From contig SVFY01000004.1 of the NCBI GenBank assembly GCA_015056625.1, positions 1 through 64,000 on the forward strand: DNA of 64,000 nt, given 5' to 3'. Position numbers and translations under genes: made by a program. This document shows, piece by piece, positions 23,793 through 38,434 of this stretch (position 1 is its first letter; the number at the start of each line of letters is the position of its first letter). The stretch comes from Butyrivibrio sp. (GTDB taxonomy: Bacteria > Bacillota > Clostridia > Lachnospirales > Lachnospiraceae). The notes under the pieces are model-generated. The model made no database searches, was not told the origin of the DNA, and saw only the letters and a list, made by a program, of their open reading frames with translations.

Positions 23793-23969
23793 TTTAAGTT
23801 CCTCCTAAAATGAATTTAATAAATAGGTTGCTGTTCCTATATCAATCTGAATTGATAATAATTTATCAGCAATCTCTATTCTATTCGACTTTTAGCCATA
23901 AATCAAGTGAGAATATTAAAAATATGCTAGAATAACTAAAGAAAAATTCTAAGAAAAATGGAGACACCT

Positions 23970-24791
23970 ATGCCAATACTTTCCGACTACCATATGCACA
24001 CTCATCACTCAGGAGACAGCACAGCTCCCATGGAGGATATGATAAAGCGTTCCATAGAGCTTGGACTTAAGGAGATCTGTTTTACCGACCATCTGGACTA
24101 TGATTATCCGGCCTGCTACGACCTTCCAAAAGATCCCTTTAATCTTGACGTTTCTTCGTATTACGAGGAGTACAAAAAATACGCTGACATCTATAAGGAT
24201 GAGATAGCTGTGCGCTTTGGCGTTGAAATTGGCATGCAGACCCAGGTTGTCTCTGATAATCTCTCTTTTGTAAAAGAAAACAATTTCGATTTTGTCATTG
24301 CGTCCATCCATCTTGTGGGCAAAAAAGATCCCTACTACCCTGACTTCTGGCAGGGAGAGAGCGTAGAGAATATATTCAGAAGATGTTTTGATGCCACACT
24401 GGAAAACATAAAACTCTTTGACGACTATGATGTCCTTGGTCATCTGGATTATATAAGCCGCTACGTTCCCAAGGGAGATACCACCTACTCCTATGAGCGT
24501 TTTGCTGATCAGATAGACGCCATCCTAAGATACCTCGTAGCCCATGACAAGGGCCTTGACTTTAATTCCAAGGTTTTAAGCAGCACCCCTGGCGGCGATC
24601 CAAATCCATGCCCTGCTGCCCTTAAGCGCTTTAGGGAGCTTGGAGGCAGGATCATCACCTTTGGCTCAGATGCCCACAAACCGGAGACTATCGCCTGCGG
24701 ATTTGACAGGATGCGCCAGATTGCACTTGAGAGCGGATTTACAGAGTACTTTACTTTTGAAAAGAGAAATCCCATTCCTCATATGCTTTGA
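23970..24791 (+). CDS. PHP-family histidinol-phosphatase-like protein
   Basis: A 273-residue metal-dependent phosphoesterase of the PHP superfamily, related to HisJ histidinol-phosphatase. The metal-binding motifs are present: DYHMHTHHSGD at the N-terminus, ICFTDHLDY, GVEIGMQ, ASIHLVG, LGHLDYI and GSDAHKPE near the C-terminus. No other histidine gene is nearby, so activity on histidinol phosphate is only a family inference. ATG 23970 is preferred to ATG 23958 because GGAG lies seven bases before it and the protein then starts directly at the first metal motif. A promoter for the next operon overlaps its stop codon. Confidence 0.85.
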   Translation: MPILSDYHMHTHHSGDSTAPMEDMIKRSIELGLKEICFTDHLDYDYPACYDLPKDPFNLDVSSYYEEYKKYADIYKDEIAVRFGVEIGMQTQVVSDNLSFVKENNFDFVIASIHLVGKKDPYYPDFWQGESVENIFRRCFDATLENIKLFDDYDVLGHLDYISRYVPKGDTTYSYERFADQIDAILRYLVAHDKGLDFNSKVLSSTPGGDPNPCPAALKRFRELGGRIITFGSDAHKPETIACGFDRMRQIALESGFTEYFTFEKRNPIPHML

Positions 24792-24816
24792 TTAGACGCA
24801 TTAAATATAGTAAAAT
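24788..24816 (+). promoter_or_regulatory. Likely promoter of the pilus-like operon
   Basis: TTGATT (24788-24793) and TAAAAT (24811-24816) with 17-bp spacing, overlapping the end of the PHP gene and 44 bases before the next start codon. Confidence 0.5.
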
Positions 24817-24859
24817 AGTATTTAATAATCCGAACATCAAATCAGCTGGGAGAAAGTCC

Positions 24860-25600
24860 ATGAAGCCCGAGTTTTATAACACAAGCAAAAGAGCTAATGT
24901 ATATAATTCAATCTTCATCTACAAGATAATTTCTTTGATAGTGGCTGTCGTACTGGCCGTCACACTGGCTGTTCTCTTTTTCCGTGACAAGGCTCTTTAC
25001 AAGGAGTTTACAGACAGTCATCCCACAGCTTTTTTCATAGTAGTAGCTATTTTCCTTGCAGTTTATATCCTGTCTATAGTTGTTGATTTCTTTATTCTGC
25101 ATCACACTGTGTCAATTCGCAGAAGGCTCAACAACCTGGCTTTTTTGGATCACCTCACTGGTCTTCCCAACAGATACAGCTGCGACCTTTTGATAGAGAG
25201 CTTCAACGACGAAGAGCATCTTCCAGATACAGGTTTTTTCCTGATGCAGATTTCCAACCTTGGCAACATCAATGTTAATGAGGGCCACAAAAACGGCAAT
25301 TACCTCATTTCAGAGTTTTCATCGATCCTTGAGGACGTGGCTGATGGCTACGGATATGTAGGAAGGAACGGAGGAAACGAGTACATTGTCCTTTTGGAGG
25401 ACTGCGACCAGGAAAAGGCTGACAAATTCCTCTCAGAGCTCTCAAAGAGGATCAGAGGCTACAACGAGCTTAACGTTGGCGCTCCTCTTGAAGTAAGATA
25501 TTCAAAAGTACTTAACAAAGAAGCAGGCAAGGAAAAAATCTCAGAGATCATCTCTTTGGGATACCAAAAAATAAGAGAAATGCCACTGGCACTTTCGTAA
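24860..25600 (+). CDS. Membrane protein with degenerate GGDEF domain
   Basis: A 246-residue protein with two membrane helices (about 20-42 and 55-80) and a GGDEF-like domain. The entry motif DHLTGLPNRYS is good, but the active-site loop reads RNGGNEY instead of GGDEF: the metal-binding Asp is Asn. It is therefore probably not an active cyclase but a GTP- or cyclic-di-GMP-sensing or scaffolding domain. ATG 24860, with GGGAG eight bases upstream, is chosen over an open frame to 24788 inside the previous gene. It opens a run of seven closely packed genes ending at 29482 that looks like a pilus-related operon. Confidence 0.8.
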   Translation: MKPEFYNTSKRANVYNSIFIYKIISLIVAVVLAVTLAVLFFRDKALYKEFTDSHPTAFFIVVAIFLAVYILSIVVDFFILHHTVSIRRRLNNLAFLDHLTGLPNRYSCDLLIESFNDEEHLPDTGFFLMQISNLGNINVNEGHKNGNYLISEFSSILEDVADGYGYVGRNGGNEYIVLLEDCDQEKADKFLSELSKRIRGYNELNVGAPLEVRYSKVLNKEAGKEKISEIISLGYQKIREMPLALS

Positions 25601-25603
25601 AGC

Positions 25604-26602
25604 ATGAACACTTTTTTCAACAGGAAGAGAAAAAGATCATACGCACTGCTTTGTGTATTCATGGGTATTGCCATGACTTTTCTTAATGGATGCGGAGAGG
25701 AAGAGACTCCTATTGGTGTCTCCACCACCAAGACCGCTCCACCTCAGTACAAGGATCCAGAAGTAACGAGGGAAAAGGGAAGTCGCGATAATACTCCTGT
25801 TTGTCTTGTGCCAACAGCGCCGGGTGAAATTGTCTACGAGAACGAATATGCAAGGCTGGATGCATCCAACGCCTCCGATGGTTACGTTGTTGTGACCTAC
25901 ATCGGAGAATCCCCAAAGGTCAAGCTTCAGATCACGGGCCCGGGTCAGAGGACCTACACCTACGACCTTCAGTCAGGTGTGCAAAAGCCTGAGGTCTTCC
26001 CTCTTCAGACCGGCAATGGCGAGTACATGATAAACGTCTTTGAAAACATTCAGGGAACCCAGTATTCCCAGGCATTTTCACAGCTGATCGACGTGACCAT
26101 TGAAAATGAATTCTCACCATTCCTTTATCCAAACCAGTACTGTACCTTTGACAGCTCCACAAAGGCAATAGCCAAGGCTGAGGAACTTGCTTATATCTGC
26201 GACTCAGATATCGAAGTGGTTTCAGAGGTTTACAACTACATAATCGCCAACATCGAATATGATCACGAGGAGGCAGAAACTGTAGAGAGCGGTTATCTTC
26301 CCAATGTGGATGAGGTTCTTTCCACTAAGAAGGGAATCTGTCTTGACTACTCCTCTCTCATGACCGCCATGCTAAGAAGCCAGCGCATCCCCACAAGAAT
26401 GGAGATTGGCTACGCAGGAACCGCTTATCACGCATGGCTGAGTACCTACATCGAGGACATCGGATGGGTCAACGGAATGATCGAGTTTGACGGAACTGAG
26501 TGGTCACTTATGGATCCAACCTTTGCATCCAACACCAAGAACAAGGAACTTAAGGAATTTATCGGAGACGGTGCAAACTACTCTGTAAAATATATCTACT
26601 AA
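25604..26602 (+). CDS. Transglutaminase-like lipoprotein
   Basis: A 332-residue secreted lipoprotein (lipobox LNGC, lipidated Cys 30) with a transglutaminase-like papain-fold domain in the second half. The catalytic triad is visible: Cys 246 in KKGICLDYS, His 276 in YHAWLS and Asp 304 in LMDPTF. Residues 75-170 form a beta-rich region that may be an Ig-like spacer. Such domains are usually cysteine proteases or cross-linkers at the cell surface. It starts three bases after the GGDEF-like gene and precedes the PilC gene by about 20 bases, so a role in assembling or processing a surface filament is possible. Confidence 0.88.
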   Translation: MNTFFNRKRKRSYALLCVFMGIAMTFLNGCGEEETPIGVSTTKTAPPQYKDPEVTREKGSRDNTPVCLVPTAPGEIVYENEYARLDASNASDGYVVVTYIGESPKVKLQITGPGQRTYTYDLQSGVQKPEVFPLQTGNGEYMINVFENIQGTQYSQAFSQLIDVTIENEFSPFLYPNQYCTFDSSTKAIAKAEELAYICDSDIEVVSEVYNYIIANIEYDHEEAETVESGYLPNVDEVLSTKKGICLDYSSLMTAMLRSQRIPTRMEIGYAGTAYHAWLSTYIEDIGWVNGMIEFDGTEWSLMDPTFASNTKNKELKEFIGDGANYSVKYIY

Positions 26603-26624
26603 TGAAGATAAATTGGAGGGCACA

Positions 26625-27680
26625 ATGGGCGCTAACTCTAAACTGAAAAAACTAAACAGCTACGAAATCTCAAGCTTTTGCAGGGAGATGGCACTGCTTT
26701 TGCAGGCCGGAATTGCTCCCGGTGATGGAATTGATATTCTGGCGCAGGATACGCAGGATGCTTCTGCAAAAAAGATCTATGACTCCATAAGCCAGGTACT
26801 CCACAGCGGAGAAAAATTCCATGTTGCTCTTTCCATGAGCGAGGTATTTCCTGACTACGTGATCCACATGGTGACCATCGGTGAGGAATCAGGAAGCATG
26901 GACACTGTTATGGAATCCCTTGCAGATTACTACGACAGAGAGGAAAACATCGAGTCCAGCATAAAGAGTGCGGTCAGCTACCCTCTTATCATGGTATTCA
27001 TGATGCTTGTGGTTGTACTGGTGCTTATCACCAAGGTCCTTCCTATCTTTGACCAGGTATTTGCGCAGCTGGGAACCAGTATGAGTGGCTTTTCTCAGTC
27101 TCTTTTAAATCTTGGAAACGCCCTCAATACCTACTCCTTTGTAATGATCGCAATCCTTGTTATTCTGGCACTTTTCTTTATATATTTTGCAATGACCGAA
27201 AGCGGCAAGACCAACCTTCGCAAGCTCCTTAGGAAGTTTGGCCCGACCAAGAGGCTTATGCAGGAAATAGACACTGAGCGCTTTGCAAGCGGCATGGTCC
27301 TTACTCTTTCAAGTGGTATGGACACCTATGAAGGTCTTTCCCTTGTTAAAAAGCTTGTAGCATCCGATGAACTTAAGGAAAAGATCGAAAGCTGCAGAGA
27401 GCTTCTTTTAGACGGCGACAGCTTCCCTGAGGCCCTTGAAAAAGCCAAGATCTTTGGCTCTTTCTACTCACAGATGGTGTCCGTAGGCTTTAAGTCAGGT
27501 TCAATGGATCAGGCCATGAGACGAGTTTCTGAGCGCATCGAAAGAGATACTCAAAAGAGGATCTACGCTCTTATCTCCGTCCTTGAGCCGACCCTTGTTA
27601 TCATACTTTCAGTAATTGTTGGAATGATCCTTTTGTCCGTGATCCTTCCTCTTCTTGGAATCATGTCAACTATCGGTTAA
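26625..27680 (+). CDS. PilC/GspF-type inner-membrane assembly protein
   Basis: The platform protein of type IV pilus or type II secretion machines, 351 residues with two GspF repeats. The first has FCREMALLLQAG and MVTIGEESGSMD; the second has FASGMVLTLSSGM and MVSVGFKSGSMD. Three membrane helices lie near 125-145, 165-190 and 325-350. The frame can be read from a TTG at 26613, but ATG 26625 with GGAGGG five bases upstream is the clear start. It normally works with a GspE/PilB ATPase, which is not found anywhere in this window. Confidence 0.92.
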   Translation: MGANSKLKKLNSYEISSFCREMALLLQAGIAPGDGIDILAQDTQDASAKKIYDSISQVLHSGEKFHVALSMSEVFPDYVIHMVTIGEESGSMDTVMESLADYYDREENIESSIKSAVSYPLIMVFMMLVVVLVLITKVLPIFDQVFAQLGTSMSGFSQSLLNLGNALNTYSFVMIAILVILALFFIYFAMTESGKTNLRKLLRKFGPTKRLMQEIDTERFASGMVLTLSSGMDTYEGLSLVKKLVASDELKEKIESCRELLLDGDSFPEALEKAKIFGSFYSQMVSVGFKSGSMDQAMRRVSERIERDTQKRIYALISVLEPTLVIILSVIVGMILLSVILPLLGIMSTIG

Positions 27681-27692
27681 TGAGGCAAATGT

Positions 27693-28028
27693 ATGGCAAA
27701 CAGATTTGATAAAACAAGCATTTCCATATTGCCCTCTGACAATTTCTACAGAGTGATCTCCGTGGTGATCTTTGTACTTATTGCCGTGTTCTTTATTCAG
27801 GCGGTCGAGTACTCCGGAAGAAGCTCTATAGAAAAGGAGCAGGAGTCTTTGGAAAATGCCATTTCCAGGGATATAGTCCAGTGCTATGCCCTTGAGGGCA
27901 TGTATCCTCCCTCCCTGTCCTACATGGAGGACCACTACGGACTTACCTACGATAAAAATGTGTTCTTTGTGGATTACCAGCCTATAGCTGCTAATCTTTA
28001 TCCGGATTACACAGTGATCCTGAGGTAG
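27693..28028 (+). CDS. Small pilin-like membrane protein
   Basis: A 111-residue protein with one hydrophobic helix near the N-terminus (about 22-40) followed by a helical stalk (SSIEKEQESLENAISRD) and a small domain with YALEGMYPPSLSYM, a pattern often seen after the helix of type II secretion pseudopilins. It lacks a clear prepilin peptidase site (G-F-x-x-x-E). Its position 12 bases after the PilC gene supports a minor-pilin or assembly role. The exact family is not recognised. Confidence 0.75.
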   Translation: MANRFDKTSISILPSDNFYRVISVVIFVLIAVFFIQAVEYSGRSSIEKEQESLENAISRDIVQCYALEGMYPPSLSYMEDHYGLTYDKNVFFVDYQPIAANLYPDYTVILR

Positions 28029-28032
28029 CTAA

Positions 28033-28518
28033 ATGAAACAGGACCAGAAAAAAAATCACACAATTGATACGGTATTTGTAATCTGCCTGCTGCTTTTATT
28101 TGTGCTGTCTTCTCTTTCAGTGATAGCCATCGGAGCAAGTATTTACAAAAAGAACGTGAGGGAAATGGCGGACAATTCTTCTCACAGGATAGCCTGCGCC
28201 TATATCACGGAAAAGGTCAGACAGGCTGATGAAGGCGGTCAGGTAAGGGTTGAAGAGATATTTGGAGAAAACGCCCTGGTCCTTACCAAGGAGATCAACG
28301 GTGTTTCCTACAACACTTATATTTACGACTACGACGGTAATCTCATGGAACTGTTTGCAAGGTCAGACCTTGGAAGCTTCTATCCCCAGTCAGGACAGAA
28401 GATCCTTAAGATAGACTCTTTTGATGTCAAAGAGATATCTGATGGACTGTTTAAAGCAGACGTGGTGATGTCTGACGGGCTTGAAGATTACCTGTACATA
28501 ACAAGAAGGAGCAATTAA
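28033..28518 (+). CDS. Pilin-like protein, DUF4860-type
   Basis: A 161-residue protein with a short charged N-terminus, one membrane helix (about 11-35) and an extracytoplasmic beta-rich domain (NTYIYDYDGNLMELF, FYPQSGQKI). It resembles the DUF4860 family that is linked with pilus loci in clostridia; this match is from memory of the pattern. It starts four bases after the preceding gene. No classical prepilin cleavage site is seen. Confidence 0.72.
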   Translation: MKQDQKKNHTIDTVFVICLLLLFVLSSLSVIAIGASIYKKNVREMADNSSHRIACAYITEKVRQADEGGQVRVEEIFGENALVLTKEINGVSYNTYIYDYDGNLMELFARSDLGSFYPQSGQKILKIDSFDVKEISDGLFKADVVMSDGLEDYLYITRRSN

Positions 28519-28526
28519 GCACCCAC

Positions 28527-29078
28527 ATGGAAAGCAAACGTAGTTCCCAGTTAAGTTTGTTCCTTATGGAACTCATAGTAGCAATCATGTTCTTTTCCCT
28601 TTCTGCAGCTGTCTGCGTAAGGCTTTTTGCTTCTGCCCACATTTTAGCTGAAAAGACAGGAAACCTTGAGAATGCCATCATGTGGACCCAGAACCTCTCT
28701 GAGGTTTACGTATCCAAAGGCGGAGATCTTGAGCAGATGGCCAGCCTCTTTACTGATGCATACCTCAGCAAATCCTCTGAGGATGATGGCACATCAAGCC
28801 TTATCCTGATCTTTAATAAAGACTGGGAGCCTATGGAACAGGGGCTCTCCGACGCTTCTTACGAAGTGATCCTCTCATCCTCAGTAAAAGATGCCAGTGA
28901 TGTTTACGCTGATGTAAACACCTATGGTGTTGAGCTTCTCGGAAAGGCTGCAACTGGAAATATAGCTGTTCTTGATATCCGCGGCGAATCTGAGATCCTG
29001 TCCGATATTCCAAAGGACTCTTCACTTATCTTTTACGAGAGCAGCATCGATACCTATATCGGAAAGGAGAAGGAATAA
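28527..29078 (+). CDS. Pilin-like membrane protein
   Basis: A 183-residue protein with a basic N-terminus and a hydrophobic helix containing a Glu (LSLFLMELIVAIMFFSLSAAVC), the pattern of a type IV pilin helix with its Glu 5-like residue. The stalk is followed by a domain of mixed strands (TSSLILIFNKDW, YGVELLGKA). The Gly normally before the cleavage point is not evident. Its stop overlaps the next gene's start by one base, so translation is coupled. Function in filament assembly is inferred from context. Confidence 0.75.
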   Translation: MESKRSSQLSLFLMELIVAIMFFSLSAAVCVRLFASAHILAEKTGNLENAIMWTQNLSEVYVSKGGDLEQMASLFTDAYLSKSSEDDGTSSLILIFNKDWEPMEQGLSDASYEVILSSSVKDASDVYADVNTYGVELLGKAATGNIAVLDIRGESEILSDIPKDSSLIFYESSIDTYIGKEKE

Positions 29079-29482
29079 TGAGTAAAAATGAATCCTCTGG
29101 TTCTCACGTGGGAACTGCTTCTATCCTTTTGATATTCACGGTTTTGTCCATTATCTCTTTCGCCACACTAACCCTTGTAAACTCCAAGGCGGACTACAAC
29201 CTAAGCAATAATCTGGCCGAGAGACAAAAGAGCTACTACAGCGCCTGCCACCAGGGCAACGCCTTCGTAGCTGCTGTAAATTCAGGGTTTGAAACAGGTG
29301 CAGAAAATGGTATAATTAGAGAAAGTGTACCAATTAGCGATAATCAATCGCTTGATATTGCGTTAATTATCAATAGTGCAAAAAACTCGCTCAATTTAGA
29401 CAATAGTGAGAACATTCTGCAGTGGCAGGTGGTAAATAACGGCGATTACAGCTACGATACGACCCTTCCAGTCATGAAATGA
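29078..29482 (+). CDS. PilX-like small membrane protein
   Basis: A 134-residue protein with an N-terminal hydrophobic helix (about 13-34, GTASILLIFTVLSIISFATL) followed by DYNLSNNLAERQKSYYSAC, a pattern typical of PilX-type minor pilin components whose helix is followed by a helical spine. It is the last of the operon; no strong terminator follows. The first base of its ATG is the last base of the upstream stop codon. Family name uncertain, context strong. Confidence 0.72.
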   Translation: MSKNESSGSHVGTASILLIFTVLSIISFATLTLVNSKADYNLSNNLAERQKSYYSACHQGNAFVAAVNSGFETGAENGIIRESVPISDNQSLDIALIINSAKNSLNLDNSENILQWQVVNNGDYSYDTTLPVMK

Positions 29483-29568
29483 TAGACCTTGTTTGATGCG
29501 GGATTTTTCGTATTTTATCAAATTTTTATTTTTGACATACCGATTTTACGTGCATTACTGAAAACATG

Positions 29569-29590
29569 TGGTACAATATATTATGTACCA
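29569..29590. promoter_or_regulatory. Palindrome upstream of cheY
   Basis: TGGTACA and TGTACCA arms separated by eight A/T bases, centred about 78 bases before the cheY start. It could be an operator or the -10 region of a promoter (TACAAT lies inside). Confidence 0.35.
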
Positions 29591-29657
29591 TAGTAAAACA
29601 CAAAAATAATTGCTTTAATTTTTTCAGCAACTAAAAATACTTTTTTGGAGGTTCAAC

Positions 29658-30020
29658 ATGGGAAAAAGAATACTCATTACAGATGACGCCGCTTTCATGC
29701 GCATGATGCTTAAGGATATCCTTTCCAAGAACGGATATGAGATTGCTGGCGAAGCAGAGAACGGAAAAGTCGCAATCGAGAAGTATAATGAGTTGAAGCC
29801 CGACCTTGTAACTCTTGATATCACAATGCCTGAGCTTGATGGTATCGGAGCCTTGAAGGGAATCAAGGCTGCAGATCCTAATGCGGTTTGCATCATGTGT
29901 TCTGCTATGGGTCAGCAGGCAATGGTTATTGAATCTATTCAGGCTGGTGCCAAGGACTTTATCGTTAAGCCTTTCCAGGCTGACCGTGTTCTTGAGGCCG
30001 TTAAAAAGGCTATCGGCTAA
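29658..30020 (+). CDS. cheY: CheY-type single-domain response regulator
   Basis: A 120-residue receiver domain with no output domain, as in chemotaxis CheY, which carries phosphate from CheA to the flagellar switch. Acidic pocket Asp 9/Asp 10, phospho-acceptor Asp 54 (TLDITMPE), Ser 82 and Lys 104 (FIVKPF) are all in place. TTGGAGG precedes the ATG. A CheC-like phosphatase gene is 13 kb away in this window (43429), but no flagellar or CheA gene is visible. Confidence 0.92.
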   Translation: MGKRILITDDAAFMRMMLKDILSKNGYEIAGEAENGKVAIEKYNELKPDLVTLDITMPELDGIGALKGIKAADPNAVCIMCSAMGQQAMVIESIQAGAKDFIVKPFQADRVLEAVKKAIG

Positions 30021-30104: not shown

Positions 30105-30956
30105 TCAGTTCTCTGCTCTTTCACCTTCATATACAGGTATTCCAAAGCCTCGAGGAAACAATCTCTCTCCCAGAGCCAGTGAAGCATAGTCGTGGCGGTT
30201 AATGATTATCCTGGTATCAGGTTCATAGGATTCGTAGGCGCTTTCAACTGCCTGCTTGATCATCTGTGGAAGGAGCTTCACAGATTCTTTTCCGGTCACG
30301 TGCATGAGCACTACCTCCAGCTGCTCAGATGGGGTCCTGTGAAGGAGTAACATTCCTACTATCTGACCGTCGATCTCAGCGTAGCAGGATACATCATTTT
30401 CAAAGTAGAGCCTTGGAAGGTATGCAAGGTCCTCACAGGTTCCATAGTGTCCCTGCACCAGGGTTCTGCTGACAGCAGCTGAAAAGCCTCTCTGGGTTGC
30501 GCTCCTTAGTGGCATTATAGCGTCTGAAATGCTTATCTTGGAGAAGGCACTGATATCAGCTATCTCAGAGAGCTTGGCGGTAATACTGTCCCCCTCCATG
30601 AGGTTTACAGTAAAGCCCCTTTCCTTTAGCATTTTCTTAAGATCCTGGCTGGTCTTTGCAGGAAGGCAAAAGAATGATCGAACTATGCCCTCCTGTTTTA
30701 CTTCCCGATCATACTTATCAAAAAGTCCATCGAAGGACTCCTGATCCTCTGCCTGCAGCCATTCTATATGGCTCTCCTTGTCAGAGTCACTTAGCATATT
30801 CTTATATCTCCAGATGATCCCTCCTACCGGACTTTCAAGGTCATCAGTAGCCACAAGACCGCTATAAAAGGTTCTGCCAATGTTCTCCGCAACATCTTCA
30901 GAAAGATACTCCATGTACTCTTCAACATTATCTTCTGTAAGTTCTATAATGTTCAT
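30105..30956 (-). CDS. GNAT-like acetyltransferase-type protein (island gene, last)
   Basis: A 283-residue soluble protein. Its overall pattern suggests two GNAT-type halves; the second has CYAEIDGQIVGMLLLHRT followed by LEVVLMHVTG, the core strands of an acetyl-CoA-binding fold, but the canonical Q/R-x-x-G-x-G/A loop is not clear. The N-terminus (YMEYLSEDVAENIGRTFYSGL) resembles that of the protein at 34916 (FKDFFPEDIYSNIGKENYYTL), so the two are paralogues. The upstream gene's TAG stop lies next to the GGAGG that serves this gene. No function is known. Confidence 0.7.
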   Translation of the reverse strand: MNIIELTEDNVEEYMEYLSEDVAENIGRTFYSGLVATDDLESPVGGIIWRYKNMLSDSDKESHIEWLQAEDQESFDGLFDKYDREVKQEGIVRSFFCLPAKTSQDLKKMLKERGFTVNLMEGDSITAKLSEIADISAFSKISISDAIMPLRSATQRGFSAAVSRTLVQGHYGTCEDLAYLPRLYFENDVSCYAEIDGQIVGMLLLHRTPSEQLEVVLMHVTGKESVKLLPQMIKQAVESAYESYEPDTRIIINRHDYASLALGERLFPRGFGIPVYEGERAEN

Positions 30957-30965
30957 TCAGGCCTC

Positions 30966-32948
30966 CTAAAAATTTTTTTGGTATATGAGATCGGTATCAA
31001 GATATGAAGTCTTCTCAATTAAATCCTTGACTTTTTCTGGATCTTGAGCATTCAGTAGATCGTTTCTGACCTTACTCTGGTATTTCGCATATGCCTTTGG
31101 CCAGTCATCCTTGCCGATGAATACAGAGTCAACTGATCGCCCTTTGGCCCTTAGCTTATTTTCCTGATCTTTCGTTTTGCGGATAAGCTTCTGTACTCCC
31201 TTTATTCTGTCTATAAGTGCGTTTCTCTCCTTTTTACTTAGAATATCGCACATAGTGTAGTTTAGCTCTTCGAGCTTTATGCCAAGGATCCTGTTAGCCA
31301 GATCTTCGTCCATGTATGGAACTGCCAGCTTGTTCTTGTACTCAATATTCCTAAGGCACTGTTCTCCACTTTTGCCTGTTTTTAATATGTCATTATAGGT
31401 CAGATTTCCAAAAGAAAGATCGTTGTCAATAGCTTTGATCTTTGTGATAAAAGTAACTTTATTATCCGTTTGAGTCTCGCACAAGTAATTGCTCCTATTT
31501 CTGTCTATCTGGCCGCATATGATGTCAAACACCTGAAGATTAAGGGTTTGTCTGAATGCACTGTTTGAATAGCGGGATTCTTTCTTGTTTGCTGTTGCTG
31601 TTGCCTGTATATCAGTGGCATTCTTTCCCTTGACCTCCTCCATTGCAATGCCCTGCATACTCTTGCCATCAACTACCAGGTTTACAAGATCTGACTTGGC
31701 GACCAGCTTCTCAAGTCCCAAAAGCTTGGCCATCCTGCTGGTAGCCACGTTTCGTTTAGAGATCTCCGCGCTATTCTCGATCCTTGCTCCATCTGTAGCC
31801 ATCATGGAAAGATTGGACTTTTTTTTCATCTCATTGAGGGTATCCAGAAGAAATTGCTGGTCATTTGCTTGTTCCCGTTCCTCTTTTGTCATTTTCGAGA
31901 ATTCCAAACCGGACATGTTGTCTTCGATCTCATCCATCATTTCGCCAAAATTGCGATCCAGCCTAGCCCAGTTTCTAAGCAACGACGCAAGCTCCCAATC
32001 TTCTTTTCCGTCGTTGAAAAGGGCCATAAGGACAGATCTTTCGTCTCCATATAGCTTTTTTAATGTCTTGTTGGTGATCTCCAGATATCTTGCCCTGCGC
32101 TTGCTGGTATCATCTTCTTTTTTCTTAAAAGTCTTGGTTCTGTCACTCAACAGCTGAAAGACACTGCGTTTAGGTACCTTCTCGTTTTCTTTGAAGTAGC
32201 GGGTAGAATCATTCTTTGTTATGATATACACCTTTGAAGTTCCGGCACCACCTATTTCAACCTCAGCACCATCTTTGTTATTTTCAATTACTTCCGTTCT
32301 GACTTCCGAAAGTATACTTAGCCAGGTTTTGCCCTCCAGGAGCTTTTGGTCACCCTTGACCAGTTCCTCCACTCTATCGGCAAATTGAATAGACTCCGTC
32401 TGTATCTGTTTTTGAAAGTCCTTTACCATCGCAAGCCTTGCTTTTCCTTCGGCTGTCCAGGGATTTCTGTTTGCTATGTAGTTTTCGCAGGCCAAAATAG
32501 TGTCACGAAAACACTTATGGATAGCATTTTGATCCTTTGAATCAAACTTCCCTTCAAGAAGGGTGTCAAGGTCTTTAAGCTTATCAAGGATTGGCTGCAT
32601 GTACTTGCTTGATGGCGTTGTTCTTTTCGCCTTTTTAAAGGTGCCATCCTTAGCAAGGAAGGTGTACTTTCCTTCACTTATAAGGGAGTGCTTCATGCTA
32701 AAAACACTGACAGGCGCAGGAATATTGGCCTCAACATCCTGCCTTTTATCCTGGATAAGTGGCTCGTCAATAACAGGGTCCTTTATCTTATTGCTCGCAA
32801 AGATATCCTGCCCATTATCAAGTATCTGCTTCTGGTTCTGAGCATTTAGATAGTTCTGGGCTTCCTGCTCTTCTTCCTTGCTGTCAAGGATCCCGATATT
32901 CATTTCTGACTGCTTGGCAGTCCAGTTGTAGAGTTTTTGTGTATCCAT
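30966..32948 (-). CDS. Atypical kinase-like protein A (tandem paralogue)
   Basis: A 660-residue cytoplasmic protein I cannot place in a named family. Its C-terminal half carries kinase-like motifs: glycine loop GGAGTSK (233-239), a candidate ATP-binding Lys in YFKENEK (253), SKRNVATSR (397-405, helix-C-like), a catalytic-loop-like GQIDRNRSNYL (479-489) and a metal-site-like IKAIDNDLSFG (504-514). The last two resemble the D-R-x-x-N-x-L and A-I-D-N-x-x-F motifs of type II phosphatidylinositol 4-kinases and related HipA/FAM20-type kinases. The first 230 residues are helical and conserved with the neighbour. ATG 32948 has AGGAGG upstream and lies 11 bases after the paralogue's stop. Confidence 0.75.
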   Translation of the reverse strand: MDTQKLYNWTAKQSEMNIGILDSKEEEQEAQNYLNAQNQKQILDNGQDIFASNKIKDPVIDEPLIQDKRQDVEANIPAPVSVFSMKHSLISEGKYTFLAKDGTFKKAKRTTPSSKYMQPILDKLKDLDTLLEGKFDSKDQNAIHKCFRDTILACENYIANRNPWTAEGKARLAMVKDFQKQIQTESIQFADRVEELVKGDQKLLEGKTWLSILSEVRTEVIENNKDGAEVEIGGAGTSKVYIITKNDSTRYFKENEKVPKRSVFQLLSDRTKTFKKKEDDTSKRRARYLEITNKTLKKLYGDERSVLMALFNDGKEDWELASLLRNWARLDRNFGEMMDEIEDNMSGLEFSKMTKEEREQANDQQFLLDTLNEMKKKSNLSMMATDGARIENSAEISKRNVATSRMAKLLGLEKLVAKSDLVNLVVDGKSMQGIAMEEVKGKNATDIQATATANKKESRYSNSAFRQTLNLQVFDIICGQIDRNRSNYLCETQTDNKVTFITKIKAIDNDLSFGNLTYNDILKTGKSGEQCLRNIEYKNKLAVPYMDEDLANRILGIKLEELNYTMCDILSKKERNALIDRIKGVQKLIRKTKDQENKLRAKGRSVDSVFIGKDDWPKAYAKYQSKVRNDLLNAQDPEKVKDLIEKTSYLDTDLIYQKNF

Positions 32949-32959
32949 AGGATAACCTC

Positions 32960-34897
32960 CTATTTCAAAAGGCAAACGCCCCACAAATATGTTTTATACT
33001 GAAGAATTTCCATTTCGTTTTTATCTTTTTCATAATCCTTGGCAAAGTTTTTAGAAAGGTCGTCCAATGACTTTTTCCAGTCTTCAGGGTTATTATCAAG
33101 AATGATCTTCTTTTTATTTCTTCTTTTAGCTTCCGCATTCATTCTTGTGCGAAGCGCCCTCTTTACACCATCTATCCTGTTAATAAGAGCCGTTCTTTCA
33201 GATTTGCTAAGGACATCACACAGCAGATAGTTTATTGTTTTTTCATCAAGGGCCAGTATCCTGTCTGCAAAAAGCTTATCCACAGCAGGAACCTGAAGTT
33301 CATCTGCATATTCAATGTTCCTCATACGATTTATCCCATATAAACCTTTTTGGTAAATATCTTCATAATCCAGATTTCCAAATGCTATATCATTGTCTAT
33401 CGCTTTTATTTGTGTGATCTCAACCGCATCATCAGTTTCCTCTTGTTCACACAGGTAATTTCCCATGTTTCTGTCCACCTGTCCGCAGATCAGGTCAAAA
33501 AGCTGAAGATTTAGGAGCTGCCTGTATGCCTTTGGCGAATACCTGACTTTCTTTTTATTCTTTTCGGCATTTTTTACAATGCTCGTTATCTTATCTCCCT
33601 TGGCCTCTTCCATGGATATGCCATTCATTTGTTTTCCATTAATGGAAAGTTTTACCAATTTAGACTCTGAAACCATATCTCCTATCTGAAGAAAATTTGC
33701 CAGTCTGCTAGTGGCCACATTTCTCTTGGAAATCTCTGCATTTTTCTGTATCTGTGCATCTCTGAATGATATTGCACTCAGAGTCTTCTTTTTCATCATT
33801 TCCTTTAGTTCATTATTTATAAAATCCATGTCATTGTCTTTTTCTTCCGGATAAGCATTCGTCCGCTCCATAATTTCCAGCATCATATTATTTATTTCTT
33901 GATCTTTACCAAACATAGCAATGATAAACGCATAGAGTTTATCATCTTTTCTATAGGCTAATTTAAGCTGCTTTGCAGCTTCTGCTTCAGTTTTATATTT
34001 CTCCATTATCACGCGTTTGATCGCCTTCAGATAGCCAAGTCGCCTTTGGCTTTTATCATCTTCTTTTTCACTTAGTTTTTTAATTGGTTCATCCATAAGG
34101 ACAAAAATATCATTGACCGGGCATTTCTCATTTTCTTTAAAATATTGTTTCTTCCCATCCTTTTCAATAATGTAAATCTTGGAAGTTCCTGCTCCTCCCT
34201 CTTCTAGTTTATAACCATCTTTTCCATGCTCGATATTATCAGTTCTGACCTCTGTAAGAACGTCAAGCCACGTCTTTGTAGTATTGACGTTAGCATTTGC
34301 CTCGTCCGTGGACAAAGCCTCTACCCTGCCAGCGAACATTATAGACTCATGCCGCATCTGAGCACGAAAATCCTTTATCATCTGTAGCCTTGCTTTTCCT
34401 TCAGCTGTCCAGGGATCTCTGTTTTCTATATAGTTTTCACAGGCGATGATAGTTTTAAGAAACAAATCCTGTATAACATCCTTTTTAGCAATGTCAAATT
34501 TCTCATTAAAGAGATTATCAAGGCTTTCAAGGTTATCCAGGATTGGCTTCATATACTTCTTCGACGGCGTACTTCTGGTGCCTTTCATCATGACACCTTT
34601 TTTTGAAAGAAAGGTATAATTGCCGCTTCTTATAAGAGATTGTTTCCTGCAAAATACATCCATGGCTGGCGGCATATGAGCAGGAACTTTCTCCCTTTGA
34701 TCCACTATGGGCGCATCTGATGGCTCGCTGCCAGAGGCATGCTCATTGCCTGGCATGTCAATGCCAATCTCATTCATATGCTTTTCTTGTAGTGCAGCAT
34801 TAGCGTCCTTAGCCTCTTTGATCTCTTTCTCATCCTCCAGGACCCCAATGTTCATATCCTGTTGTTTTGCCCAGCTATATAGTTTATGAGTATCCAT
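32960..34897 (-). CDS. Atypical kinase-like protein B (tandem paralogue)
   Basis: A 645-residue paralogue of the following gene, with which it shares the N-terminus (MDTHKLYSW, MNIGVLE), the block TPSKKYMKPILDNL, NPWTAEGKAR-like DPWTAEGKAR and all kinase-like motifs: GGAGTSK (234-240), Lys 254, SKRNVATSR (390-398), GQVDRNMGNYL (472-482) and IKAIDNDIAFG (497-507). Keeping the same motifs in both copies while other parts differ suggests both are active. The middle (260-385) is divergent and may set substrate choice. No membrane helix or signal peptide. Starts after AAAGGAG, 18 bases downstream of the acetyltransferase-like gene. Confidence 0.75.
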   Translation of the reverse strand: MDTHKLYSWAKQQDMNIGVLEDEKEIKEAKDANAALQEKHMNEIGIDMPGNEHASGSEPSDAPIVDQREKVPAHMPPAMDVFCRKQSLIRSGNYTFLSKKGVMMKGTRSTPSKKYMKPILDNLESLDNLFNEKFDIAKKDVIQDLFLKTIIACENYIENRDPWTAEGKARLQMIKDFRAQMRHESIMFAGRVEALSTDEANANVNTTKTWLDVLTEVRTDNIEHGKDGYKLEEGGAGTSKIYIIEKDGKKQYFKENEKCPVNDIFVLMDEPIKKLSEKEDDKSQRRLGYLKAIKRVIMEKYKTEAEAAKQLKLAYRKDDKLYAFIIAMFGKDQEINNMMLEIMERTNAYPEEKDNDMDFINNELKEMMKKKTLSAISFRDAQIQKNAEISKRNVATSRLANFLQIGDMVSESKLVKLSINGKQMNGISMEEAKGDKITSIVKNAEKNKKKVRYSPKAYRQLLNLQLFDLICGQVDRNMGNYLCEQEETDDAVEITQIKAIDNDIAFGNLDYEDIYQKGLYGINRMRNIEYADELQVPAVDKLFADRILALDEKTINYLLCDVLSKSERTALINRIDGVKRALRTRMNAEAKRRNKKKIILDNNPEDWKKSLDDLSKNFAKDYEKDKNEMEILQYKTYLWGVCLLK

Positions 34898-34915
34898 ATA
34901 TTACTCCTTTTCAAA

Positions 34916-35662
34916 TCATCGGGGCTTTATTTGCGGTATAACATTAAATATCTTTTCAAGCTGCAGATATTCTTTACATTCAATTTTTATGAGCTCATCG
35001 TCACCATACTGGTCTCTGGCTCTTTTTACGCTGTAAGCTAAAAGGCTCACTAACCTGTCTGAAGTTTCAGGCTTATCACAGCCAAGGTAAGTTATGATAA
35101 GATCTTCAAAGGCGTTCTTTTTCGCAAGAAGAAGCGCGCATCCATCCTTCGCCTTGTAAAAAGAGCTGATCTCGTCCTCAAAAAATCTTTTTTGCTCAAG
35201 GACAGTTCCCTTAGCTACTTGTTTTTTTATTTTGATAAACTCGAGATTGTCGATAAAAGAAATACTGTAGATATCTTTGGTAGAAACAGATTTAAACAGA
35301 TCAAGAGCGCATAGCTCTTTTGCACGTGCACCATAGACATACACGCAGTCATCACCTGGAAGTTCAACAAGATCTTCAGAGATCCCGCTTTCAAGCACAA
35401 CGTTTTTGTATTCTTCCAAAAGAAGAAATGCTATATCGCTGTCAACAAACTCCTCAGGAACATAGAGATAGAACACCCTGGAGTAAGTACCTTTGTTTTC
35501 ATCAAATCCCACAAAAAACTGCAGGACTCCAGCGACAAATTCCTCGTCGTCAAACGCCCCAAGGGTGTAGTAATTCTCTTTTCCAATGTTGCTATATATA
35601 TCTTCAGGAAAAAAATCTTTAAAAGCTTCAGCTTCATTTTTCGTAACTGTAAAAACAGACAT
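34916..35662 (-). CDS. GNAT-like acetyltransferase-type protein (island gene)
   Basis: A 248-residue soluble protein, paralogous at its N-terminus to the one at 30105 and shorter. The first half has the strand pattern GAFDDEEFVAGVLQFFVG, then VFYLYVPEEFVDSDIAFLLLEEY, which fits the middle of an acetyltransferase fold; a clear acetyl-CoA loop is not visible, so activity is uncertain. It is the first gene after a 124-nt gap in the island and has an inverted repeat whose arm overlaps its ribosome-site region (35663-35727). Confidence 0.68.
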   Translation of the reverse strand: MSVFTVTKNEAEAFKDFFPEDIYSNIGKENYYTLGAFDDEEFVAGVLQFFVGFDENKGTYSRVFYLYVPEEFVDSDIAFLLLEEYKNVVLESGISEDLVELPGDDCVYVYGARAKELCALDLFKSVSTKDIYSISFIDNLEFIKIKKQVAKGTVLEQKRFFEDEISSFYKAKDGCALLLAKKNAFEDLIITYLGCDKPETSDRLVSLLAYSVKRARDQYGDDELIKIECKEYLQLEKIFNVIPQIKPR

Positions 35663-35727
35663 AGGACAGATGCTCCTTCCGATAAATTCCTGATTATATA
35701 ATATAATATTTCGTTAGCATCTGTCCT
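35663..35727 (-). promoter_or_regulatory. Inverted repeat over the ribosome site of the 34.9 kb gene
   Basis: Perfect 12-base arms, AGGACAGATGCT on one side (35716-35727 read on the minus strand) and AGCATCTGTCCT (35663-35674), enclose an A/T-rich loop of 41 bases containing TATAAT. The proximal arm lies between the AAGGAG ribosome site and the start codon, so pairing could hide the start; alternatively it is a regulator-binding pair around a promoter. Confidence 0.5.
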
Positions 35728-35786
35728 GAATTTAATAAATACTTAATTATTTCTTTTTTCTGTCCCGAAGGAGTTTTATGATAACT

Positions 35787-35960
35787 CTAATTTTGTGCAG
35801 CCTTCGACAACTGTCCATGATATCTCTTAAGTCCGGCATTCAGATACACCTTCAGGCTCTCCACCACATCCGTAGCGAAAGGTTTATCGCTGTTATAATA
35901 TGCAGTGAAACTGGTATGGAGAATGTCTTGCCCACCATCGCCGCCGTCACGTCCTATCAT
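35787..35960 (-). CDS. Small 57-residue protein, translationally coupled
   Basis: An open frame of 57 codons starting at ATG 35958-35960, whose A is the last base of the preceding gene's TGA, with CGGAGG nine bases before it inside that gene. The protein begins MIGRDGGDGGQD and contains ATDVVESLKVYLNAGLKRYHG, a likely amphipathic helix. The Gly/Asp-rich start and lack of a membrane segment suggest a small soluble partner. The overlap and ribosome site make it a credible gene; I recognise no family. Confidence 0.6.
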   Translation of the reverse strand: MIGRDGGDGGQDILHTSFTAYYNSDKPFATDVVESLKVYLNAGLKRYHGQLSKAAQN

Positions 35961-36808
35961 CAGAATACCTCCGTTTCAAAGCAAAAGCTTACCAGACTGC
36001 CAACTTTTTTCGCATTTTCAGACGAAAAATCCTTTAACATTCTGCTGTATCCTCTGCCAGAAAACATATACATATATATAGGTGAATCCTTGGATAGGCT
36101 CTTTTTTGCTGCTGACTTGCCCCAAAAGATGAGGTCATTTATAAGAGCTCCTTCGTCGCTTCCGTAAGCAGCTACGCCTTCTATAAAAAGAGATCCATTC
36201 CTGATACTGGTAAGCATCCCTCCCTGAACTACGCCATCGTCATCAACCAGAAAAGTACTGGTTTTAGGGTCATAGCAGGTCCTGTCCAGTATTTCAAAGC
36301 TGTATCCTGAAGCTTCCCTTGCAAAATAGATCCACTGATCCTCTGACAGGTCATTAAGATGAAGACATCCCATTTCGGTCACAGGATCGTTAGCTTTTAC
36401 ATCTCCAAAACTGATCTCATACAATGAAAGTTTTTTCTCCTCTTCAAAGAAACCAAGATCTGCAAAGAACTTTTCTGTTTCTTCCTCCTGTTCCTCTGCA
36501 ACATATTCGGAGTAAAAAACTGCGCTACACTTTGCGATTCTGGCCACATCCTTAAGCAGCGTCAAAAGAGCTTTAAGCGCATCTTCATTATTGTACGCAT
36601 CTTCAATGATCACTTCTCTTACGGACAGGGCAAAAGTCTTGTCACTGCCGTCAGAAACTGTAGCCACTGCCATTACACCGCAGGCAGTATCAGATTCCAC
36701 TTCATATAAGCCCATAAAGAAATCGCTCTGCTCCTTTACTGCTTCATCAAGTGGTGTCAGGAAAACCCCTCTATTCTTTTCATCAACTAGCGTCGCTGCA
36801 AAAGTCAT
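35960..36808 (-). CDS. GNAT-like two-domain protein (island gene)
   Basis: A 282-residue soluble protein. Two alpha/beta halves with GNAT-like strand patterns: CGVMAVATVSDG then AKCSAVFYSEY in the first, and STFLVDDDGVVQGGMLTSIRNGSLFIEGVAAYG in the second, where an acetyl-CoA-type helix would follow (GALINDLIFWGKSAAKKSL). ATG 36808, with GGAGG eight bases upstream, is preferred to an ATG at 36823 that has no ribosome site. It begins about 18 bases after the lipase-like gene and ends by overlapping the 57-residue gene. Enzymatic activity is not proven by any motif I can see. Confidence 0.68.
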   Translation of the reverse strand: MTFAATLVDEKNRGVFLTPLDEAVKEQSDFFMGLYEVESDTACGVMAVATVSDGSDKTFALSVREVIIEDAYNNEDALKALLTLLKDVARIAKCSAVFYSEYVAEEQEEETEKFFADLGFFEEEKKLSLYEISFGDVKANDPVTEMGCLHLNDLSEDQWIYFAREASGYSFEILDRTCYDPKTSTFLVDDDGVVQGGMLTSIRNGSLFIEGVAAYGSDEGALINDLIFWGKSAAKKSLSKDSPIYMYMFSGRGYSRMLKDFSSENAKKVGSLVSFCFETEVF

Positions 36809-36826
36809 ATTGGCATCCTCCATGCA

Positions 36827-38434
36827 TTATTTCTTTTTCCTGTCTCTGATAAGTTTTAATACCTCAAAAATGGAATCTATAAGAAGAAGGGTTCCGCAGG
36901 ATAGCATGTACCAGCTGTTCTCAATGTCAGGCATTATAAGGATATACGCCCCCAAAAGGAAAGTTACGATCCCTTCAAATGAGTATCTGAAGCGCTCGAA
37001 CACCTTGGTGTTGTATATCCTGAAATTGATGATGTTCTGATAAGCAAGAGAAAGAAGCAGTACTCCTAAGATCATGCTGGATACCACAAAAAGAGCTCCT
37101 TCCTTCACCAGAACTGCTGAGGTCAGAACCCAAAGCACGATACAGAGCATAACTCGTGGTCTTTCTTTTTTGAAATCCCATTCTGAGTTCTTTAAGTGCC
37201 TTATGGTGAGCACAACCTCGTAGATGCATGTAAATACAAGGACTGCGAACACCACGGATTCCATGGCAAAGTCAGGAAACGCAAAGCTTAATATGCTAAG
37301 AAGTAGCGTAAGGCCAATCCTTATTGACTCTTTTCTGTTGATCAGTCCCCAGGCTCTTACAAAGATTCCCTTGCTGTCATCGTCTTCTTTTTTTATGCTC
37401 TTTGCCTTGTTTTTTAAGTTAAGGGCATCGCTGCCTGCCATGTTGAAAAGAAGCTCTTCAAAGGCTTCAGGCCCTTTCATGGCGAACTCTCTTATGGTGT
37501 TGGCTCCGGTGTCAGTCATGGAGTTAAAGAGACTGTCAATGAAGTTTTCCCTGGCCCCAAGATCCATGCCCTCCACAAAACGGTCAATTAAATCTGTAAT
37601 AAGGTGGCTCTCAGGAGCATGGTCCTTACAGGTTATAAGCCCCTCAGGACCAAGCATCCAGGTCTGCATGCTGTGCTGGATAAGAGCATGGGCTGAACTT
37701 CTTACTATGATGCTCTCCCCTGCCGGGGGTTCAAAGATCCTGCCAATAATTGAGTATTCAGGAGTTATCTTGGTGATCTTATCAAGAATATTGTTGATAA
37801 GGGCCTGATCAAGGACTTCATCGCAAAAGCCAGGCCCATCATTAATATAGACTCTCTTTAGCTTGGCCTGCTGTCTGATATCAAGATGAGCTGCGGCGTA
37901 AAGAGCAAGATGGGCTCCCTTGGAGTGACCAAGGATTATCACATCTCCAGAAGCTTCATTCACATGCCTTATGGCATAGTCAAGAGCCAGGTCCTGGGAA
38001 GGAACATTTGTGTAGCTTATCATGAAGTCTTCCTTCCAGCCTATGATGGTAGAATCTGTTCCTCTAAATGCAATGACTGTAGTGCCGTCACTTAAGGAAT
38101 AAGTCACAGCTGCAAACTGCTTATCTGAGGTATCAAATATATCCTGAAAGTCAGAAATGACTATGTTCCCAAAGCGCTTACTTGATGCGCAATACCTTGC
38201 AAAGTCCAGATCTTCTTTACCGGAGCCTGCACGGGTATTTCTTATGGCGTGCATATCTTCCAGGTGGTAGATGGCGTCACGCAGGGTGGCAGTATCAGAT
38301 TTTACGTGTTCAAAAAACGGCTTGTAATCAATATATACAAGCTCAGCCAGAACAAGGTTATCTTCAATTCTAAATTCCCGCTCTCCAAAATCCAGATCAC
38401 CCTTCCAGAGAACGTAATCAGACAAATGAGCCAT
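36827..38434 (-). CDS. DUF2974-type lipase-like protein with C-terminal membrane domain
   Basis: A 535-residue protein. Residues 1-320 form an alpha/beta-hydrolase of the DUF2974 (Mbeg1-like) family with nucleophile elbow GHSKGAH and the oxyanion-type FRGTDST. The C-terminal 170 residues hold about six membrane helices (FAMESVVFAVLVFTCIYEV and onward), so the hydrolase should be held at the inner face of the membrane. Related proteins are common in Firmicutes but their substrates are unknown. It starts 11 bases after the second ABC subunit gene and is followed within a few bases by the acetyltransferase-like gene, so it links exporter and island. Confidence 0.85.
   Translation of the reverse strand: MAHLSDYVLWKGDLDFGEREFRIEDNLVLAELVYIDYKPFFEHVKSDTATLRDAIYHLEDMHAIRNTRAGSGKEDLDFARYCASSKRFGNIVISDFQDIFDTSDKQFAAVTYSLSDGTTVIAFRGTDSTIIGWKEDFMISYTNVPSQDLALDYAIRHVNEASGDVIILGHSKGAHLALYAAAHLDIRQQAKLKRVYINDGPGFCDEVLDQALINNILDKITKITPEYSIIGRIFEPPAGESIIVRSSAHALIQHSMQTWMLGPEGLITCKDHAPESHLITDLIDRFVEGMDLGARENFIDSLFNSMTDTGANTIREFAMKGPEAFEELLFNMAGSDALNLKNKAKSIKKEDDDSKGIFVRAWGLINRKESIRIGLTLLLSILSFAFPDFAMESVVFAVLVFTCIYEVVLTIRHLKNSEWDFKKERPRVMLCIVLWVLTSAVLVKEGALFVVSSMILGVLLLSLAYQNIINFRIYNTKVFERFRYSFEGIVTFLLGAYILIMPDIENSWYMLSCGTLLLIDSIFEVLKLIRDRKKK

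Follow-up and report, generated by a model that had tools for sequence, protein, structure and literature searches.

A kinase-like protein family and its GNAT-fold partner co-occur with a contractile injection system in Butyrivibrio

Contractile injection systems (CISs) are reportedly present in gut Bacteroidales. The cargo of extracellular contractile injection systems (eCISs) is described as still largely unknown in excerpts of one survey (PMC11297309), and N-terminal leaders and the Pvc15 ATPase are stated, in an excerpted source, to load such cargo (PMC11495950). Legionella has effector kinases on the Fam20/CotH and PI3K side, which, as presented in excerpts of PMC9758233, are the nearest parallel in kind that was found to the proteins described here. 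These are A and B, two tandem kinase-like proteins encoded, together with a GNAT-fold partner termed c0, in a 64,000-nucleotide stretch of a Butyrivibrio sp. genome (hereafter the window; assembly GCA_015056625.1, contig SVFY01000004.1, positions 1 to 64,000). A and B are reasonably likely to be effector cargo of a CIS encoded elsewhere in the same bacterium. The words Lachnospir-, Butyrivibrio and rumen are absent from two eCIS surveys, in which 'kinase' occurs only in other senses (PMC11297309; PMC8213781), and Lachnospir-, rumen and kinase are absent from a third (PMC12210884); the excerpts of these three surveys hold no injected kinases of the A/B kind. In full-text literature searches, outside subscription papers and preprints, none of the papers listed dealt with the kinase family or with a partner of this kind. 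Together, the kinases and their co-diversifying GNAT-fold partner, which track a CIS through the Lachnospiraceae, offer a concrete, testable effector set for this abundant gut group.

The original prediction described two tandem paralogous reading frames of 660 and 645 residues; both are present on the minus strand, as are all the motifs listed for them, GGAGTSK, YFKENEK, SKRNVATSR, GQ(I/V)DRNxxNYL and IKAIDND(I/L)xFG. That prediction did not include the GNAT-like partners or the tie to a CIS. The A-B alignment spans 621 columns at 45% identity (E = 1.4e-173), and the motifs that the two share are not due to chance. In an alignment of A, B and 20 relatives found by whole-sequence search, R392, A400, G434, D468, D475, R476, N480, D501, E567 and R574 (A numbering) are invariant. 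In a wider 74-row alignment, D468, D475, R476, N480 and G507 are invariant, although conservation of positions 500-507 in this set is partly built in because 72 of the 74 rows come from loci found via the IDND pattern. D475, N480 and D501 are kept in 137 of 151 family open reading frames (ORFs). Both genes are under purifying selection: the ratio of non-synonymous to synonymous substitution rates (dN/dS), taken against the same gene of a close relative, is 0.21 for B (97% identical) and 0.25 for A (51% identical, with dS at 1.55 and near saturation).

The predicted fold of A is a kinase fold, nearest to those of type II phosphatidylinositol 4-kinases (PI4KII), CtkA and Fam20, with CotH and HipA more distant, which supports the earlier kinase-like reading. 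A and B almost certainly have a kinase fold, and fold prediction and profiles place them, as predicted atypical protein-kinase-like enzymes, on the PI4KII/Fam20 side of the superfamily. The best 60 of 212 PDB matches of a whole-length family profile were for the most part helical or coiled-coil chains and included Fam20C (0.024); the search was therefore repeated with the profile of the core alone. In the core-profile alignments with Fam20C and PI4KIIbeta, the DR of DRxxxN falls on the catalytic loop and the IDN of IDND on the metal loop, consistent with the proposed likeness to the PI4KII loops. The match to PI4KIIbeta has an E-value of 0.0023 and sets D503 opposite G; N480 is aligned with N in PI4KIIbeta and with E in Fam20C. 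B, the only protein searched singly, has no sequence relative in the PDB. No Pfam or NCBIfam match lies above the cut-off in A or B, PF00454 and PF06702 both falling below it, and to this extent the family is unrecognised, as had been claimed. Yet at E<=0.1 Pfam PI3_PI4_kinase is matched by 25 of 74 family members, and Fam20C by 20 of 74, which makes the family a divergent branch of a known superfamily; one relative (L124) exceeds the Fam20C cut-off (PF06702; 35.1 vs 26.8 bits).

Several differences separate A and B from the described members of this superfamily. Identity to PI4KIIalpha/beta is 18%; compared with PI4KII, A and B add an N-terminal leader and module as well as a large helical insertion, and the window proteins lack a Pfam match. 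Unlike the secretory-pathway kinases Fam20C and Fam20A, A and B are bacterial, have N480 opposite E, and show, on inspection by eye, no secretory signal at the N-terminus, which in both looks polar and without a hydrophobic stretch. The bacterial kinases CtkA, CotH, HipA and LepB have the same fold, but identity is 11-15% and size and gene context differ. In A, a predicted disordered leader (about residues 1-109) is followed by a helical module (about 110-217), the PI4KII/Fam20-like kinase domain (about 218-590), in which a helical insertion lies between the lobes, and C-terminal helices.

The host genome (assembly of 2.7 Mb) contains two more relatives on other contigs, and a CIS. On contig C6, at about 9.6-60 kb (L197-L198, L218), genes for AAA+WHD, Pvc16_N, DUF4280, sheath, tube and gp25 proteins lie in one region. 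It is followed by genes for a 1537-aa protein whose N-terminus has a hydrophobic segment, for c0 and for a protein of 1280 aa or more. The family was found in 20 of 99 genomes searched with A, the host included, and all 20 belong to Butyrivibrio. Among 61 Butyrivibrio genomes, which are not independent of one another, 21 carry the tube gene and 20 the family (16 genomes have both, 4 the family alone, 5 the tube alone and 36 neither; p = 3e-7); thus, the tube gene is present in 16 of 20 family-positive vs 5 of 41 family-negative genomes. Absences are soft because several of these genomes are incomplete. In 397 Lachnospiraceae genomes, where up to three candidates per genome were scored for the family and up to six for c0, the family is present in 21 by profile (E<1e-10), with 21 further weak matches (9.4e-10 to 8.8e-4), and the tube in 43. 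The PF06841 tube proteins fall into two kinds, split by the author's reading of lengths and scores: a longer kind of about 165-188 aa (22 genomes) and a shorter, mostly paired kind of about 142-162 aa (21 genomes). Of the 21 family-positive genomes, 10 have the longer kind (p = 7e-9; 1e-5 when any tube is counted) and none has the shorter one. The cut-offs, E<1e-10 for the family and E<1e-20 for c0 in the 61-genome scan described below, were set after the lists had been seen; one genome with tube and c0 (G454) has a family match of 9.4e-10 and is counted as negative.

The partner c0 is nearly confined to CIS-bearing genomes. The model of the c0 protein downstream of B has a tandem GNAT fold. 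Of 150 family ORFs, some genes being counted twice, 78 have c0 directly beside them. Kinase and adjoining c0 co-diversify (Mantel r = 0.49 over 50 pairs made non-redundant by removal of near-identical copies). Only 18 of the 397 Lachnospiraceae genomes contain c0, and 16 of these have a tube (p = 3e-15), two of them (G441 and G477) the shorter kind; the two c0 genomes without a tube are assemblies 60% and 68% complete. In a further scan of 61 genomes (37 Butyrivibrio and 24 of other families of the order), 13 contain both c0 and tube, two c0 only (G003 and G017) and one tube only (G025). In five Butyrivibrio genomes, 25-27 kb separate a c0 copy from the tube gene; in the host genome, c0 is about 26 kb downstream of the tube. 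The interpretation of A and B as cargo is carried by the co-occurrence in 16 of 20 Butyrivibrio genomes and by these c0 results.

An alternative is that the kinases act in their own cell in a regulatory or metabolic role, with c0 as a regulator or ordinary acetyltransferase of the same operon and the CIS correlation as a by-product of lifestyle. This is unlikely, given that c0 is nearly exclusive to CIS genomes and lies near the tube gene, and that the family has a patchy multi-copy distribution, fusions to very large ORFs and a biased leader composition. The acetyl-CoA P-loop motif RxxGxG/A is kept in 30 of 55 c0 proteins and lost in 25, including all three window copies, which in this differ from the tandem GNAT proteins GlmA, MAB_4324 and VipF; with the motif absent in those 25, a role of c0 as an ordinary acetyltransferase was set aside. 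However, action in the own cell would fit two facts that weigh against delivery by the CIS. The window cluster lies on a different contig from the CIS locus, and neither tube nor c0 is present in 11 of the 21 family-positive Lachnospiraceae genomes, indicating that part of the family works without this CIS. Further points count against delivery. In one genome (G020), the ATPase beside a family member is about 200 kb from the tube gene; no eCIS_core was found in A, B or the four c0 proteins scanned; and part of the co-occurrence may reflect common ancestry of Butyrivibrio species. Among four distinct ATPase-adjacent members in Butyrivibrio, three have lost catalytic residues: in L058:2382-3869, L064:7181-8743 and L068:5897-7318, the catalytic D and the metal-loop residues are missing, and these pseudokinase-like proteins could be structural or adaptor forms.

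A separate clade also favors own-cell action for a part of the family. In a tree of 126 tips, one clade of 26 tips (support 0.95), which does not include the window proteins, holds 10 of the 11 tube-negative family-positive Lachnospiraceae references, the eleventh being unplaced, and all placed members of the four tube-negative family-positive Butyrivibrio genomes. Its members come from L053, L055, L057, L066, L067, L140, L141, L145 and L148-L150 and from tube-negative Lachnospiraceae genomes. c0 adjoins 1 of 16 testable clade members vs 54 of 93 outside, with near-identical copies removed, and leader glutamine is 4.5% in the clade (n=15) vs 8.9% outside (n=100). Where a Butyrivibrio genome has a member placed outside the clade, the tube is always present (12 of 12). 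The clade is mostly not tied to the CIS, and only once to c0. The tube split among references is partly built in, because the clade was picked by a score rewarding tube-negative and penalizing tube-positive reference tips; the choice made no use of the c0 counts or of Butyrivibrio tips other than those of the window genome. The separation also has exceptions that count against the delivery reading: tube-positive Butyrivibrio genomes G033 and G043 carry clade members, and on a smaller tree the clade includes a member from tube-positive G439, whose assembly is 59% complete and whose tube match is weak. Besides the 12 genomes just mentioned, the 16 Butyrivibrio genomes with family and tube include G008 and G050, whose members are too incomplete for the 126-tip tree (that of G050 falls outside the clade on the smaller tree), G033, with one clade member and one unplaced, and G002, where an ABC1-type domain accompanies the helical module and there is no PI4KII-like core. 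A second match of G017 was left out.

How the proposed cargo would be loaded is suggested by its leader and neighbors. Family leaders are rich in glutamine (8.4% at residues 2-41, n=116) vs other ORFs of the same loci (2.8%, n=483), and charged residues are also enriched at family N-termini relative to those 483 ORFs. In 11 distinct loci, the ORF beside a family gene belongs to an AAA-ATPase cluster; the four adjoining ATPases scanned are all AAA, with a WHD domain in the first two scanned. The ATPase is accompanied by Baseplate_J and Tail_P2_I genes in L147 and by an eCIS_core ORF in L105, whereas the nine other loci have the AAA ATPase only. Because leader- and Pvc15-dependent loading is reported for eCIS cargo, in an excerpted source (PMC11495950), a comparable route is proposed: the disordered glutamine-rich leader and helical module would dock the kinase to the loading machinery, the adjacent c0 would bind its cognate cargo as a chaperone or adaptor, the AAA ATPase of the CIS would load the kinase into the tube, and contraction would deliver it into a target cell, where it might phosphorylate a lipid or protein. 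The family resembles effectors loaded by the Pvc15-type ATPase of the Photorhabdus virulence cassette, as excerpted from the same source, in its putative leader, the AAA ATPase beside some members and the CIS in the genome (PMC11495950). It differs from them in that a kinase cargo comes with a GNAT-fold partner and that the cassettes are scattered away from the CIS locus. A role of c0 as chaperone or loading partner of the kinase is put forward tentatively, as a possibility close to evenly balanced; if true, it would add a loading partner with a decayed acetyltransferase fold that goes unmentioned in the excerpts of the eCIS surveys.

Two other roles for c0 are conceivable. First, c0 might itself be an effector delivered alongside the kinase, as a tandem-GNAT acetyltransferase resembling Legionella VipF, to which the c0 model has a Foldseek match (1.2e-9); retention of the acetyl-CoA motif in more than half of the c0 proteins fits such an activity. 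This is rather improbable, as the motif is lost in the others, c0 co-diversifies with the neighboring kinase, and c0 lacks a glutamine-rich leader (2.2% at residues 2-41, n=94), its model being ordered from the start (predicted local distance difference test score, pLDDT, of 97 for residues 1-10). Second, kinase and c0 might form a toxin-antitoxin or anti-phage pair, like HipA with its antitoxin. That pairing is very unlikely: no HipB-type helix-turn-helix (HTH) antitoxin lies beside A and B, whose neighbors are c0 and an Mbeg1-like gene, without an HTH match in them; c0 has a GNAT fold; c0 accompanies the CIS even in genomes where no family kinase was detected (G031 and G076); and a literature search gave no paper on the candidate defense family PDC-M03.

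The cargo reading of A and B can be widened. Thirteen ORFs contain the helical module of A (about 110-218) but lack the PI4KII-like core; as loci overlap, some of these ORFs are the same gene. One of the module-bearing proteins, of 2216 aa (L072:9924-16574), contains the module twice together with an ABC1/APH-type kinase domain (5.1e-18) and has c0 on both sides; in this module swap, the module is retained and the kinase fold differs. In the host genome, other c0 copies have neighboring ORFs of 534 to 2275 aa, among which two are mutually related, and very large ORFs (914 to 2793 aa) adjoin c0 or, in L224, a weak c0-like gene (Table 1). Pfam searches of six giant ORFs beside c0 gave nothing above the cut-off and one peptidase C39 trace below it. 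L104 (2996 aa) and L129 (1865 aa), which are among the longest ORFs that bear the kinase, had no Pfam match. The giants beside c0 may be further cargo. In a speculative and somewhat doubtful extension, rumen and gut Firmicutes would carry a polymorphic injected-effector system, in which one CIS is supplied by many scattered cassettes that each pair a large cargo with a dedicated GNAT-fold chaperone, and the catalytic domain is exchanged behind a common helical module (PI4KII/Fam20-like kinase, ABC1-like kinase, pseudokinase or giants), with gut eukaryotes such as rumen protozoa as targets. A eukaryotic target of the kinases themselves is a guess, made plausible by the likeness to PI4KII and Fam20 and by the gut habitat.

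Of 232 pattern stretches in genome contigs, 184 were confirmed, and 79 loci were retained, mostly of rumen or gut Lachnospiraceae and also of Oscillospiraceae, Hungatella, Pseudoflavonifractor and Paenibacillus; the locus sets L033-L072 and L073-L151 partly overlap. Complete family ORFs range from about 400 to 3000 aa. A single-sequence scan of genome contigs found no relative. A viral scan gave one weak locus and BFVD no match at E<=0.001. A search of phages gave no match, and a phage origin of the family was set aside on that ground. A plasmid search gave one match of 24%, annotated as phosphatidylinositol 4-kinase, in Comamonas. The PADLOC candidate defense family PDC-M03A is touched by 25 of 74 family members (best 1.2e-6).

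The kinase genes belong to six co-directional genes on the minus strand at 30105-38434 of the window (Table 1), with intergenic gaps of 3 to 18 nt, except for 297 nt between the two upstream GNAT-like genes. The B ORF encodes 672 aa from a GTG (30966-32984) or 660 aa from an ATG at 32948 preceded by GGAGG.

Table 1. Positions of features in the window and, for loci with an L number, elsewhere in the host genome
Feature	Position	Strand	Basis or remark
Kinase-like protein A, 645 aa, ATG start	32960..34897	-	ORF, fold model, alignment
Kinase-like protein B, 660 aa, tandem paralogue of A	30966..32948	-	ORF, alignment
N-terminal leader of A, residues 1-109	34571..34897	-	pLDDT < 50 at 1-21, 47-97, 106-109
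Glycine loop GGAGTSK of A, residues 234-240	34178..34198	-	
Predicted catalytic loop DRNMGN of A, residues 475-480	33458..33475	-	Conservation, profile alignment
Predicted metal loop IDND of A, residues 500-503	33389..33400	-	Conservation, profile alignment
Predicted catalytic loop DRNRSN of B, residues 482-487	31488..31505	-	
c0 (tandem-GNAT-fold partner), 283 aa, 9 nt downstream of B	30105..30956	-	Fold model; acetyl-CoA P-loop motif lost
c0, 248 aa, 18 nt upstream of A	34916..35662	-	P-loop motif lost; fold inferred by alignment with 30105-30956
Third c0 paralogue, 287 aa, between Mbeg1-like gene and 248-aa c0	35960..36823	-	
Mbeg1-like alpha/beta-hydrolase, C-terminal hydrophobic segments	36827..38434	-	Cluster membership uncertain
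Very large ORFs beside c0, host genome	L220:7155-18556, L221:998-7390, L223:4455-7199		
Very large ORF beside weak c0-like gene, host genome	L224:3-8378		

The Mbeg1-like gene lies 3 nt from a c0 gene and is also found near kinase genes in three relative loci, two of which are the same contig (L035/L073 and L036). As possible cargo, its product has hydrophobic C-terminal segments and no glutamine-rich start. Beside the kinase cluster, on the plus strand at 23958-30020, lie PHP, GGDEF, transglutaminase-like, type II secretion system protein F, DUF4860 and response regulator genes, forming a type II secretion/pilus-like operon. As a delivery route, this operon was set aside because it is on the strand opposite to the kinase cluster.

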